DNA of 61,788 bases from Paeniroseomonas aquatica (lineage in GTDB: Bacteria > Pseudomonadota > Alphaproteobacteria > Acetobacterales > Acetobacteraceae): assembly GCF_030409335.1 (NCBI RefSeq), contig NZ_JAUFPN010000205.1, positions 1 through 61,788 on the forward strand, read 5' to 3'. This document shows, piece after piece, positions 24,586 through 44,901 of this stretch. A program made the position numbers and the translations under genes. Numbering within the stretch: position 1 is the stretch's first letter; each line of letters starts with the position of its first letter. The notes beneath the pieces are model-generated. The model was given only the letters and a program-made list of their open reading frames with translations. It was not told where the DNA came from and ran no database searches.

Positions 24586-25917
24586 ATGAGCAGCAGACGG
24601 CAGTTGCGCCTGGGCGCCTTCATGCGGCCGGTGAGCATCCATACCGGCGCCTGGCGCTACCCCGGCGCCTTCCCGGACGCCAACTTCAACTTCGCCCACT
24701 ACAAGCGCTTCATCCAGACGCTGGAGCGCGGCCGGTTCGATGCCTTCTTCATGGCCGACCACCTGGCGCTGCTGAACATGCCGGTCGAGGCGCTGAAGCG
24801 CAGCCATACCGTCAGCAGCTTCGACCCGCTGACCCTGCTGCCGGCGCTCGCCGCCGTCACCGAGCACATCGGGCTGATCGCCACCGCGAGCACGACCTAC
24901 AACGAGCCCTACCACATCGCCCGGAAATTCGCCTCGCTCGACCACATCAGCGGCGGCCGCGCCGGCTGGAACCTGGTCACCACCTCGAACCCCGACGCGG
25001 CCAAGAACTTCGGCCATGACGAGCACATGCCGCATGGCGAGCGCTACCAGCGCGCCCGCGAGTTCTTCGACGTCGTCACCGGCCTCTGGGACGGCTGGGC
25101 CGACGACGCGCTGATCCGCGACGCGGGCAGCGGCATCTACTTCGACCCCGACCGGGTCCATGTGCTGGACCACAAGGGCCCCGAGTTCAGCGTCCGCGGC
25201 CCCCTGAACGTCGCCCGCCCGGTCCAGGGCTGGCCGGTCATCGTCCAGGCCGGCGCCTCCGAGGCCGGGCGGCAGATCGCCGCCGAGACCGCCGAGGCGG
25301 TCTTCGCCAGCCAGGCGACGCTGGCCGAGGGGAAGGCCTTCTACGCCGACATCAAGGGGCGCATGGCCCGGCTCGGCCGCGACCCGGACCACCTGAAGAT
25401 CCTGCCCGGCGCCTTCGTCGTGGTGGGCGACACGGTGGCCGAGGCGCGCGCCAAGCGCGCCCATCTCGACAGCCTGGTGCACTACGACAGCGCCATCGCC
25501 TCGCTCTCGATCGCCCTCGGCACCGATGCCAGCCGCTTCGACCCGGACAGCCCGCTGCCGCCCATTCCCGACACCAACCAGAGCAAGAGCGGCCGCGAGC
25601 GCACCATCGCCCTGGCCGAGCGGGAGGGGCTGACCGTCCGCCAGCTCGCCCAGCGCCTCGGCGGCTACGGCGGCCTCGCCATGGTCGGCACCCCCGCGAC
25701 CATCGCCGACGAGATGGAGCAGTGGCTGGTCGAGGGCGGCTCCGATGGCTTCAACGTGATGTTCCCCTGGCTGCCCGGCGGGCTCGACGATTTCGTCGAC
25801 CAGGTGGTGCCCGAGCTGCAGCGTCGCGGCATCTTCCGCCGGGAATACGAGGGCCGCACGCTGCGGGAGAACCTCGGCCTGCCACGGCCGAAGAGCCGCT
25901 TCTTCCCCGCCGGCTGA
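24586..25917 (+). CDS. LLM-class FMN-dependent monooxygenase (NtaA/SnaA/DszA family)
   Basis: 443 residues, typical for this family. Signatures: FDAFFMADHLAL, the long DPLTLLPALAAVTEHIGLIATASTTY core, GRAGWNLVTTSNPDAAKNFG, WPVIVQAGASEAGR and VGTPATIADEMEQW. These enzymes use FMNH2 from a separate reductase and O2 to oxidise chelators (NTA, EDTA), organosulfur compounds or long-chain substrates. I start at ATG 24586, just before conserved RLGAFMRPVSIHTGAW; a start 34 codons upstream would add unconserved Ala-rich sequence. No reductase gene adjoins. Confidence 0.9.
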   Translation: MSSRRQLRLGAFMRPVSIHTGAWRYPGAFPDANFNFAHYKRFIQTLERGRFDAFFMADHLALLNMPVEALKRSHTVSSFDPLTLLPALAAVTEHIGLIATASTTYNEPYHIARKFASLDHISGGRAGWNLVTTSNPDAAKNFGHDEHMPHGERYQRAREFFDVVTGLWDGWADDALIRDAGSGIYFDPDRVHVLDHKGPEFSVRGPLNVARPVQGWPVIVQAGASEAGRQIAAETAEAVFASQATLAEGKAFYADIKGRMARLGRDPDHLKILPGAFVVVGDTVAEARAKRAHLDSLVHYDSAIASLSIALGTDASRFDPDSPLPPIPDTNQSKSGRERTIALAEREGLTVRQLAQRLGGYGGLAMVGTPATIADEMEQWLVEGGSDGFNVMFPWLPGGLDDFVDQVVPELQRRGIFRREYEGRTLRENLGLPRPKSRFFPAG

Positions 25918-41993: not shown

Positions 41994-43339
41994 TGAAGCT
42001 CCGCTTCGCCCCGTCGCCGACCGGCCTGCTGCATGTCGGCAATGCCCGCGCCGCCCTGGTCAATTGGATGTTCGCCCGGCAGCGCGGCGGCACCGTGCTG
42101 CTGCGTCTCGACGATACCGACCTCGAACGCTCCAAGGCCGAATATGCCCAGGCGCTGGAGGAGGATCTGCGCTGGCTGGGCCTCGACTGGGACGAGAGCT
42201 TCCGCCAGTCCGACCGGCTGCCGCTCTATGCCGCCGCCGCCGAGCGGCTGAAGGCCAGCGGCCACCTCTACCCCTGTTTCGAATCCGAGGACGAGCTGCG
42301 GGTGAAGCGGGAGCTGCGCCTGAAGCAGGGCCGCCCGCCGCTCTATGACCGCGGCGCCCTGAAGATGACGCCGGAGCAGTTCGCCAAGGCCGTCGCCAAC
42401 GGCAAGTCGCCCTATTGGCGTTTCAAGCTGAACAACCGCACGGTGGAATGGCAGGACGGCGTGCTCGGCCGCCGCGGGGTGAAGCTGCCCAGCCTGTCCG
42501 ACCCGGTGCTGATCCGCGCCGACGGCTCGCCGCTCTATACCTTCACCTCGGTGGTGGACGACCTCGACAGCAGGGTCACCCACATCATCCGCGGCGAGGA
42601 CCATGTCACCAATACCGGCGTCCAGCTCGATATCTGGGAAGCCCTCGCCGGGCCGAAGGACATCCGGGCCACGGCGCTGTCCTTCGCCCATCTGCCGCTG
42701 CTGACCGATGCCGATGGCGGGCCGCTGTCCAAGCGCCTCGGCAGCCTCTCGCTCCGCCAGCTCCGCCGCGACGGGGTGGAGCCGGCGGCGCTGGCCGGTT
42801 ACCTCGCCGCGCTCGGCACCTCGCAGGACCCGGTGGTCGGCATGCCGGCCGCGCTGGTCCCCGGCTTCGCGCTGACCGCCATCTCCCACTCGCCGGCCCG
42901 CTTCGACGTGCAGCAGCTGCTGGCGCTAAACCGCAAGCACCTGCATGCGGCTCCTTTCGAGGCGGTGCGGGCGCATCTGCCGGAGGGCGCCGACGAGGCG
43001 TTCTGGCAGGTCGTCCGCGGCAACCTCGATTTGCTGGGCGAGGCCAAGGGCTGGTTCGAGGTCACGAACGGCACCGTGGTCCCGCCAGTCCAGCCGGGCG
43101 AGGCCGAGTTCCTCCACGCCGCCCTGGCCGCCCTGCCGGCCGAGCCCTGGGATGCCACCACCTGGGGCGCCTGGACCGAGGCGTTGAAGGCCGGCACCGG
43201 CCGGAAGGGCAAGGCGCTGTTCCTGCCGCTGCGCCTGGCCCTGACCGGGGAGGACCATGGCCCCGACCTCAAGGCCCTGCTGCCGCTGATCGGCCGGGAG
43301 CGGGCGGCGCTGCGCCTCAGGCTCGGCGCCGAGGCTTGA
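41993..43339 (+). CDS. gltX: Glutamyl-tRNA synthetase
   Basis: 448 residues. Class I signatures: RFAPSPTGLLHVGNAR (HIGH variant) near the N-terminus, LRLDDTDLERS, IRGEDHVTNTGVQ, and PLSKRLGS in the KMSKS position. The overall length is normal for bacterial GluRS. It charges tRNA-Glu (and possibly tRNA-Gln, as in many alphaproteobacteria that make Gln-tRNA by amidation; not decidable here). ATG 41993 touches the preceding stop (TGATG). cysS follows with its own leader. Confidence 0.95.
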   Translation: MKLRFAPSPTGLLHVGNARAALVNWMFARQRGGTVLLRLDDTDLERSKAEYAQALEEDLRWLGLDWDESFRQSDRLPLYAAAAERLKASGHLYPCFESEDELRVKRELRLKQGRPPLYDRGALKMTPEQFAKAVANGKSPYWRFKLNNRTVEWQDGVLGRRGVKLPSLSDPVLIRADGSPLYTFTSVVDDLDSRVTHIIRGEDHVTNTGVQLDIWEALAGPKDIRATALSFAHLPLLTDADGGPLSKRLGSLSLRQLRRDGVEPAALAGYLAALGTSQDPVVGMPAALVPGFALTAISHSPARFDVQQLLALNRKHLHAAPFEAVRAHLPEGADEAFWQVVRGNLDLLGEAKGWFEVTNGTVVPPVQPGEAEFLHAALAALPAEPWDATTWGAWTEALKAGTGRKGKALFLPLRLALTGEDHGPDLKALLPLIGRERAALRLRLGAEA

Positions 43340-43363
43340 GTTTCCGCCCCCAAGCTGCGTAGA

Positions 43364-43402
43364 ATGTCAGCCATGTTCCAGGGCTGTCGCTGCCGCTGCT
43401 GA
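43364..43402 (+). CDS. Cysteine-rich leader peptide ORF upstream of cysS
   Basis: A 12-codon ORF, MSAMFQGCRCRC, or nine codons from the inner ATG at 43373. Three of its last five residues are Cys, alternating with Arg, directly before TGA. It lies between the gltX stop and cysS with no other role. Leader peptides with runs of the regulating amino acid control biosynthesis or synthetase genes by ribosome stalling; a Cys-rich one next to cysteinyl-tRNA synthetase fits that logic. Ten bases after the stop, a 9-bp hairpin begins. Confidence 0.7.
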   Translation: MSAMFQGCRCRC

Positions 43403-43411
43403 TCTCACCCC

Positions 43412-43434
43412 GCGCGCGGGCCTGACCCGCGCGC
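43412..43434 (+). promoter_or_regulatory. Hairpin after the Cys leader (possible attenuator element)
   Basis: GCGCGCGGG (43412-43420) pairs with CCCGCGCGC (43426-43434) around the loop CCTGA. It begins ten bases after the leader stop and ends 30 bases before the cysS start. A ribosome stalled on the Cys codons would sit next to it and one at the stop codon would cover its base. No U-run follows, so control of translation initiation is more likely than intrinsic termination. Confidence 0.5.
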
Positions 43435-43464
43435 CCAGCCGCGTGCCCGTTGCGACCAAGCGCC

Positions 43465-44901
43465 ATGGATGCCCCGATGCCCGACCTTCTGCTCCACAAT
43501 AGCCTGACCCGCGCCAAGGAAGCCTTCGCGCCGATCGACCCCGCGCATGTGCGGATGTATGTCTGCGGCCCGACGGTCTACGACCTGGCCCACCTCGGCA
43601 ATGCCCGGCCGGTCATCGTCTTCGACCTGGTCTTCCGCCTGCTGCGGCGGCTGTATCCGCGGGTCAGCTACATCCGCAACATCACCGACGTGGACGACAA
43701 GATCAACGCCCGCGCGGCCGAGAGCGGCGAGCCCATCGCCGCCATCACCGCCCGCACCACGGCGGATTTCCACGCCGACATGGAAGCGCTGGGCAACCTG
43801 CCGCCGACGGCCGAGCCCCGCGCCACCGCCGCCATCGCGCCGATGATCGCGTTGATCGAGAAGCTGATCGACCGGGGCCATGCCTATGCGGCGGAAGGCC
43901 ACGTGCTGTTCAGCGTGGCCTCCTACCCGGAGTACGGCGCCCTCTCCGGCCGCACCCCGGACGAGCTGGTCGCCGGCGCCCGCGTCGAGGTCGCGCCCTA
44001 CAAGCGCGACGCCGGCGACTTCGTGCTGTGGAAGCCCTCGGACGAGGCGACCCCCGGCTGGGACAGCCCCTGGGGCCGCGGCCGCCCGGGCTGGCACATC
44101 GAATGCTCCGCCATGTCCTGGCAGGCGTTGGGCGAGGTCTTCGACATCCACGGCGGCGGCCACGACCTGCTCTTCCCGCACCACGAGAACGAGGTGGCGC
44201 AGAGCCGCTGCGCCTTCGGCACCGCCGCCATGGCCACGACCTGGCTGCACAACGGCATGCTGCGGGTCGGCGGCGAGAAGATGTCGAAGTCGCTCGGAAA
44301 CTTTTTCACGGTGCGAGATATCTTGAAGCTCGGTTCGTGGGCCGGCGAGGCCTTCCGCCTGTTGGTCTTGAAGACGCACTACCGACAAGATCTGGACTTC
44401 AATTTTCCCTTGCTTAGAGAGGCCAAGGCCGAGCTCGACGACGACTATGCGATGCTGGCCCGCGCCGTGACCGCGCCCGACCTCGAGGTGCCCCGCGCCG
44501 AGATGGTGGCCTGGGCGCTGGAGCCGCTGCACGACGACCTCAACACCGCCCTGGCGCTGACCCGGCTGCGCGACCTCCGGACGCTTGAGAATGTCGCCAG
44601 CGTCGGCGGCAGCGCCGCGACCGTGCTCGCCCGCGCCGGCAAGCCCTGGCCGGTGGTCCCGGGCCTCGCCGCCAGCGCCTTCCGCGAGGTCGCCGGCGTG
44701 CTCGGCCTCGCCGCCTCCGAGCCGCAGGCCTGGCTGCGCGGCGGCGACGACCACGCCTGGGTCGAGGCCGCCATCGCCGCCCGCCTCGCCGCCCGCAAGG
44801 CGCGCGATTTCGCCGAGGCCGACCGCATCCGTGCCGAGCTGACCGCCAAGGGCATCATCCTCGAGGACGGTCCGCAGGGAACCACCTGGCGCCGCGCGTG
44901 A
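43465..44901 (+). CDS. cysS: Cysteinyl-tRNA synthetase
   Basis: 478 residues from ATG 43465 (ATG 43477 is an alternative; neither has a strong ribosome site). MYVCGPTVYDLAHLGNARP carries the zinc Cys and the HIGH motif (HLGN); GWHIECSAMS and DIHGGGHDLLFPHHENEVAQ carry the other zinc ligands; KMSKSLGNFF is the canonical KMSKS loop. It charges tRNA-Cys. The weak ribosome site and the preceding Cys-rich leader suggest regulated translation. It overlaps the downstream methyltransferase by four bases. Confidence 0.96.
   Translation: MDAPMPDLLLHNSLTRAKEAFAPIDPAHVRMYVCGPTVYDLAHLGNARPVIVFDLVFRLLRRLYPRVSYIRNITDVDDKINARAAESGEPIAAITARTTADFHADMEALGNLPPTAEPRATAAIAPMIALIEKLIDRGHAYAAEGHVLFSVASYPEYGALSGRTPDELVAGARVEVAPYKRDAGDFVLWKPSDEATPGWDSPWGRGRPGWHIECSAMSWQALGEVFDIHGGGHDLLFPHHENEVAQSRCAFGTAAMATTWLHNGMLRVGGEKMSKSLGNFFTVRDILKLGSWAGEAFRLLVLKTHYRQDLDFNFPLLREAKAELDDDYAMLARAVTAPDLEVPRAEMVAWALEPLHDDLNTALALTRLRDLRTLENVASVGGSAATVLARAGKPWPVVPGLAASAFREVAGVLGLAASEPQAWLRGGDDHAWVEAAIAARLAARKARDFAEADRIRAELTAKGIILEDGPQGTTWRRA

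Follow-up and report, generated by a model that had tools for sequence, protein, structure and literature searches.

Classical ribosome-mediated attenuators, of the trpL and hisL type, carry codons of the cognate amino acid in their leader ORF. In mycobacteria, leaderless polycysteine short ORFs were reportedly described in 2020 by Canestrari et al. as cysteine-responsive attenuators. Two further papers likewise treat the mycobacterial leaderless polycysteine ORFs as cysteine-responsive attenuators of downstream genes (PMC9031893, PMC13236596). For the Rhodobacterales, PMC8632094 describes uORFC-8-2, an AUG-started upstream ORF with Cys codons that lies directly upstream of cysS together with an RNA structure and a proposed terminator, and for which feedback through Cys-tRNA is proposed; its two tandem Cys codons are usually codons 14-15, and the words leaderless and Shine-Dalgarno are absent from the main text of the paper (PMC8632094). 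Our literature search, which did not use the name Roseomonadaceae and covered subscription papers thinly, returned no description of such leaders in Acetobacteraceae/Roseomonadaceae. To the known Cys-uORF control of cysS and the known leaderless polycysteine ORFs, the locus analysed here would add, judging from its sequence, a 9-codon and apparently leaderless form in which no terminator was found.

The locus lies in the window (the whole 61,788-nt stretch of Paeniroseomonas aquatica DNA that was analysed, from a genome of 6.5 Mb), between two genes that we take from their protein sequences to be gltX and cysS, the latter in agreement with the first-pass annotation. Its features are the following.

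43336..43341, + strand: -35-like hexamer TTGAGT, overlapping the gltX stop codon (43337-43339)
43360..43365, + strand: -10-like hexamer TAGAAT, 7 nt upstream of the leader ATG
43373..43402, + strand: leader ORF MFQGCRCRC*, 9 codons, leaderless by its geometry, proposed sensor of Cys-tRNA(Cys)
43385..43399, + strand: Cys-Arg-Cys-Arg-Cys codons TGT CGC TGC CGC TGC, predicted to pair with 43435-43456
43412..43434, + strand: perfect 9-bp G+C hairpin with no T-run after it
43435..43456, + strand: conserved segment containing CAGCCGCGTG and TTGCGAC, with which the Cys codons are predicted to pair
43467..43469, + strand: weak Shine-Dalgarno-like GGA, 7 nt before ATG 43477, as read from the sequence
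43477..44901, + strand: cysS (cysteinyl-tRNA synthetase), proposed start 43477 and not 43465

The gltX gene ends at 43339, upstream of the leader, whose codons run from ATG (43373) through TTC CAG GGC TGT CGC TGC CGC TGC to the stop TGA (43400-43402). Cys thus occupies codons 5, 7 and 9 of 9, none of them tandem or contiguous, and the first is the rare TGT. The hairpin, GCGCGCGGG-CCTGA-CCCGCGCGC, begins 9 bases past the leader stop. Both the short ORF ending in C-R-C-R-C before cysS and the 9-bp stem on its 3' side had been pointed out in the first-pass annotation and are indeed there. The ORF is preceded by a sigma70-like promoter, TTGAGT-18-TAGAAT (43336-43365), for which shuffled sequences give a mean of 0.0 (n=50). 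Because this promoter ends 7 nt before the leader ATG, that ATG would sit at about +1 and the 9-codon ORF should be leaderless. A 12-codon reading from ATG 43364 was rejected: its start overlaps the last two bases of TAGAAT, so the longer form would be absent from the transcript, leaving the 9-codon form as the plausible one.

The distance of 62 bases from the leader stop to cysS given in the first-pass annotation is right for ATG 43465, and it does not apply to the likelier start at ATG 43477, which lies 74 bases past the stop. The latter is probably the better choice, since ATG 43465 is missing or out of frame in three of the eight same-genus genomes (ACG in L143 and L035; out of frame in L141).

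Like attenuators in general, the locus combines a conserved short ORF with codons for the amino acid of the downstream gene. It shares with uORFC-8-2 the short AUG-started Cys uORF directly upstream of cysS and the presence of RNA structure. However, uORFC-8-2 peptides are of the type MKSNAIIICCIITC with tandem Cys, whereas the window's leader has 9 codons and ends in CRCRC, and the stems differ. A 3' U-run belongs to uORFC-8-2 as described (PMC8632094), and none was found at the window locus. We built our own covariance model of the Rhodobacterales type (R1, distinct from any model of the authors of uORFC-8-2) from 17 loci, 16 Rhodobacterales-type and one from Devosia; with only 6 base pairs it is mainly a sequence test. 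On six held-out Rhodobacterales-type loci it scored three at E < 1e-9 and one at 0.039, and missed two. R1 had no match at the window's leader locus or in the 14 related loci given to it, and its one match in the window (24793-24874, E 0.14) lies away from the leader. By this model, membership of uORFC-8-2 was rejected or disfavoured. The locus also departs from the motif in its Cys codons, which are not tandem, and in that no terminator with a U-run was found.

With the mycobacterial polycysteine ORFs the leader has in common clustered Cys codons, and it would share a role as attenuator and, by its promoter geometry, a leaderless state; that type, however, precedes cysteine synthesis genes and has contiguous Cys codons, in contrast to CRCRC before cysS. 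As in trpL and hisL, the regulatory codons would be those of the cognate amino acid. Unlike those leaders, the window locus shows no intrinsic terminator with a U-run, and the predicted promoter, if correct, would leave no space in which a Shine-Dalgarno site for the leader could fit.

Conservation of the reading frame in relatives was a test named in the first-pass annotation, and the leader passed it: in all eight same-genus genomes (genus g1, the window's own) the ORF is present with its Cys codons and is followed by a hairpin. The leader ends in CRCRC in seven and in CRC in one, the peptides being MFQGCRCRC (2), MLQACRCRC (2), MFEACRCRC, MFQACRCRC, MSKACRCRC and MSKACRC, the last shortened by an in-frame 6-nt deletion. 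Apart from this deletion the Cys-Arg codons are invariant in the genus, while the linker between leader stop and hairpin drifts. The -10 region TAGAATGT is identical in 8/8 genomes; in L141 the sequence further upstream differs and TTGA is absent, yet the -10 box and leader are kept. In the hairpin, one pair is changed on both sides in two of the eight genomes and broken in one. When the 62-nt spacer was shuffled 3000 times, 0.4% of the shuffles had a perfect stem of at least 9 bp, as did 0.95% of the 62-nt segments of the window. The RNA from 43373 to 43520 folds no more stably than its shuffles (z = -0.38; 65/200 shuffles fold at least as well).

We then considered up to 400 bases upstream of cysS in 146 loci, of which 30 came from a 200-genome family search (cysS match in 195/200), 60 were further matches of that search taken as short stretches, 53 came from genus searches and three were named loci. 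Thirty-nine loci with a gltX distance scored at <60 nt were set aside, one of which (L159) has a leader; in 57 loci without a recognised gltX end, the test covered the last 130 nt. Of the 107 loci tested, 42 have a short ORF ahead of cysS that carries Cys among its last two codons, where shuffles predict 1.5 and the reverse strand gives 3. The criterion (ATG start, 4-16 codons, Cys in the last two) was chosen after the first relatives had been seen. All 42 come from g1, g50, g9, g20, g45 and g56. Such leaders persist beyond the genus: other genera of the clade also have, at cysS, a short ORF whose Cys codons lie close to its end, and their peptides differ: MPILRCCC, with contiguous Cys, and MAILSCCR in g50; MVKSCRCC, MGQSKTCR and others in g9; MSASRLRAPALCR and similar ones in g20; MTRTCCRPC and MNLRSRCRPR in g56; and MHAAPACRRR in Paracraurococcus. 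For the comparisons below, a set of 46 leaders was used, from which L148 and L156 (both among the 42) were left out, their shortest reading being only MVCR.

Many members of the family lack the leader. None of the 46 loci tested among the 60 short-stretch family loci has a Cys-ending leader, and relatives lacking one include 14 g20 genomes, in which gltX and cysS lie close together, as well as g35, g39 and L145 (g50). In L145, CATAAG is kept and no Cys-ending ATG ORF is left, the leader having apparently been lost. A tree of 88 CysS proteins places the window in a group of 82 rows (support 99/99) that contains Paracraurococcus and Roseicella and is labelled Roseomonadaceae; within the genus, the window and L141 stand apart from the other six rows. 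On this tree the distribution of the leader needs 13 changes, at least 12 of them forced by well-supported branches, which fits an old element that was lost repeatedly, repeated gain being a conceivable alternative.

The promoter geometry extends beyond the genus as well. Among the 46 leaders, 42 have TTGA at a distance of 35-37 nt ahead of their ATG, the exceptions being L141, both g56 leaders and Paracraurococcus; the TGA of this TTGA doubles as the gltX stop, which helps to preserve it. A search of 86 loci (746 kb, both strands counted) for short ORFs with this geometry returned 49, of which 42 lie before cysS (Cys is among the last two codons in 38 and comes slightly earlier in four) and seven do not. 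The only one of these seven that ends in Cys, and so the only Cys-ending ORF of this geometry away from cysS in the 86 loci, is MPQPCC on the reverse strand of L039.

As for specificity to cysS, a motif combining the -10 box with the leader, written after the relatives had been seen, occurs exactly once in each of the eight genus genomes searched (one of them 75% complete), each time at cysS. The CRCRC-stop pattern itself has one occurrence in the whole 6.5-Mb genome; it is also found away from cysS in three same-genus genomes (G252, G279 and G255). Looser patterns are more frequent: Cys-x-Cys-stop has 57 matches in the window's own genome, irrespective of frame, and TTGA-ATG-Cys-stop has 5-24 matches per genome in the eight genus genomes. 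The latter include the cysS leader in seven of the eight, G375 being without TTGA; one other such site recurs in seven genus genomes and is out of frame by its letters.

Conservation, specificity to cysS, promoter geometry and the excess of Cys-ending ORFs lead us to regard the leader as probably a ribosome-mediated, Cys-tRNA-responsive attenuator of cysS, whose start would be unmasked by stalling. The feedback loop on CysS proposed in the first-pass annotation is the natural reading of such a leader; on folding predictions, a better candidate for the switch than the hairpin is a helix between the Cys codons and the sequence just ahead of the cysS start. We infer leaderless initiation, stalling, the direction of the response and the unmasking step, which would proceed as follows. 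By the promoter geometry, the transcript would begin at or beside the A of the leader ATG, and 70S ribosomes would start the 9-codon ORF at the mRNA 5' end without a Shine-Dalgarno site. When Cys-tRNA(Cys) is ample, the ribosome would pass the Cys codons and depart, and the freed segment would pair, around the hairpin, with the segment just upstream of the cysS start, holding this weakly marked start closed. If charged tRNA(Cys) ran short, a ribosome would stall on UGU/UGC and cover the Cys-codon segment, the cysS start would open, and more CysS would be made.

In the structure predicted for the genus, TGTCGC and then GCCGCTGCTG pair with CAGCCGCGTG and GCGAC before the cysS start, enclosing the hairpin. 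We compared by computation how much energy it takes to open the cysS start region when the leader is free and when a ribosome halted at the first Cys codon covers it. In the window's genus, covering the leader cuts this cost by 1.5-5.4 kcal/mol in 8/8 genomes; the mean gain is 3.3, whereas shuffled leaders give 0.6, and in any one genome 0-15% of 40 shuffles do as well as the real leader. Gains also exceed those of shuffled leaders in g50 (mean 3.5 vs 1.3, five genomes), g56 (mean 5.5 vs 1.6, two genomes) and Paracraurococcus (3.8 vs 1.6, one genome), and weakly in g9 (2.0 vs 1.3, 13 genomes). Shuffled leaders are not exceeded in g20 (mean 1.5 vs 1.7, 16 genomes) or g45 (-0.2 vs 1.0, one genome), so that pairing of the Cys codons with the start region is favoured by folding in some genera and not in these two; all 46 leaders together give 2.4 vs 1.3. 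Permutation of leaders and start regions across genera was not significant for duplex energy (p = 0.12) or longest helix (p = 0.07; 30 draws gave a median of 0.054, with values of 0.002-0.31). Covariation gives the outer helix no support in the genus, since its pairs hardly vary and the covariation term is unfavourable (+1.06); RNAalifold alignments have one or two pairs changed on both sides each. As g20 and g45 show no effect and the permutations are not significant, the folding model of unmasking is favoured in the window's genus but unproven as a general rule.

A leaderless Cys ORF of this kind could act instead through transcription attenuation, stalling deciding on termination at or after the hairpin, by a weak intrinsic or a Rho-dependent terminator. 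The placement of the hairpins would suit this, the strongest one between leader stop and cysS beginning 0-13 nt past the stop in 40/46 leader loci, and the Rhodobacterales cysS motif is described with a terminator (PMC8632094). In the window, however, no terminator-like site was found in 43200-43600, and the 12 bases 3' of the hairpin hold a single T. In the eight genomes of the genus, the strongest local hairpin is followed by 1-3 T within 12 bases (in L142, L032, L033 and L144 this hairpin exceeds the simple one in size), and nowhere from the leader stop to the cysS start does a run of 9 bases contain >5 T. On this count an intrinsic terminator was rejected for the window's genus, and we consider transcription attenuation unlikely at the window locus. 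Transcriptional control is possible above all in g9, because T-rich tails follow the hairpin there: unlike in the window's genus, the tails of L158, L160 and L164, with 6 or 7 T in 12 bases, are possible terminators, and L154, L155 and L159 have 5.

Readings without any Cys-dependent control fare worse. If the ORF were translated and cysS simply had a plain promoter, its Cys codons could be a by-product of RNA pairing or of G+C-rich codons; the Cys-Arg codons do belong to the best predicted helix, and Arg recurs next to Cys in many leaders. Against this, genera whose leaders otherwise have little in common still have Cys close to the stop, and only one of the seven same-geometry ORFs away from cysS, a small sample, ends in Cys. 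Codon choice speaks against it too: the rare TGT is over-represented in the leaders, where it accounts for 43/88 Cys codons (from related rows, hence not 88 independent cases) as against 7/144 in 25 coding-like ORFs of the window. One tRNA reads both TGT and TGC; UGU might be decoded more slowly, or pairing might be what keeps it in the leaders. We therefore hold the by-product reading to be improbable. Most improbable of all is that the ORF arose by chance within a promoter region that is conserved. G+C-rich DNA does contain many short ORFs, and CRCRC-stop is present somewhere in 103/299 genomes of the order sample, but chance is disfavoured by the excess of Cys-ending ORFs at cysS loci, by the single copy of the -10-plus-leader motif at cysS throughout the genus, and by a conserved frame in which 6-nt gaps inside the ORF are in-frame while the linker after it drifts.

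Returning to the Cys-tRNA-responsive attenuator, the ORF, its promoter geometry, its conservation and its specificity to cysS are observed features; they extend Cys-codon control of cysS, if such it is, past the Rhodobacterales to the clade around the Roseomonadaceae (Acetobacteraceae-type genomes). The system would be compact, with promoter, sensor and target start within about 140 bases, and would make a clean test case for leaderless initiation driving amino-acid attenuation in Gram-negative bacteria. Rhodobacterales-type leaders such as MKSNAIIICCIITC were found among 77 loci (L064-L140), 30 of which fell under a loose criterion; the tandem Cys codons stand at about codons 7-11 in most of them, earlier than codons 14-15. 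Because TTGA or TTGC begins 35-37 nt before the uORF ATG in 9/18 uORFC-8-2-type loci (range L078-L136), these leaders may be leaderless too. More speculatively, and with some doubt on our part, the leader might serve as sensor and lock at once: lacking a ribosome binding site of its own, it would be read by 70S ribosomes from the 5' end, its Cys codons, with the rare UGU among them, would pair with the cysS start region, and a single stalled ribosome would open cysS without a terminator. Leaderless Cys uORFs at cysS would then perhaps be the usual form in Alphaproteobacteria, and in the Rhodobacterales as well. A Cys leader much like the Rhodobacterales ones, MKTKCTIIACIITC, is present in Devosia, which does not belong to the Rhodobacterales, about 143 bases upstream of the cysS match (L101).

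Known RNA families were searched with Rfam. At E up to 5, the region 42800-44000 gave only sub-threshold matches to livK (antisense, inside cysS) and snoU82P (inside gltX); a T-box or other Rfam leader was rejected, with no Rfam match upstream of cysS. Eight loci searched at the gathering score gave one match, which lies away from cysS: PYLIS_3, the pyrrolysine insertion sequence (mttB), at 950-1049 on the reverse strand of the Roseovarius locus L087.
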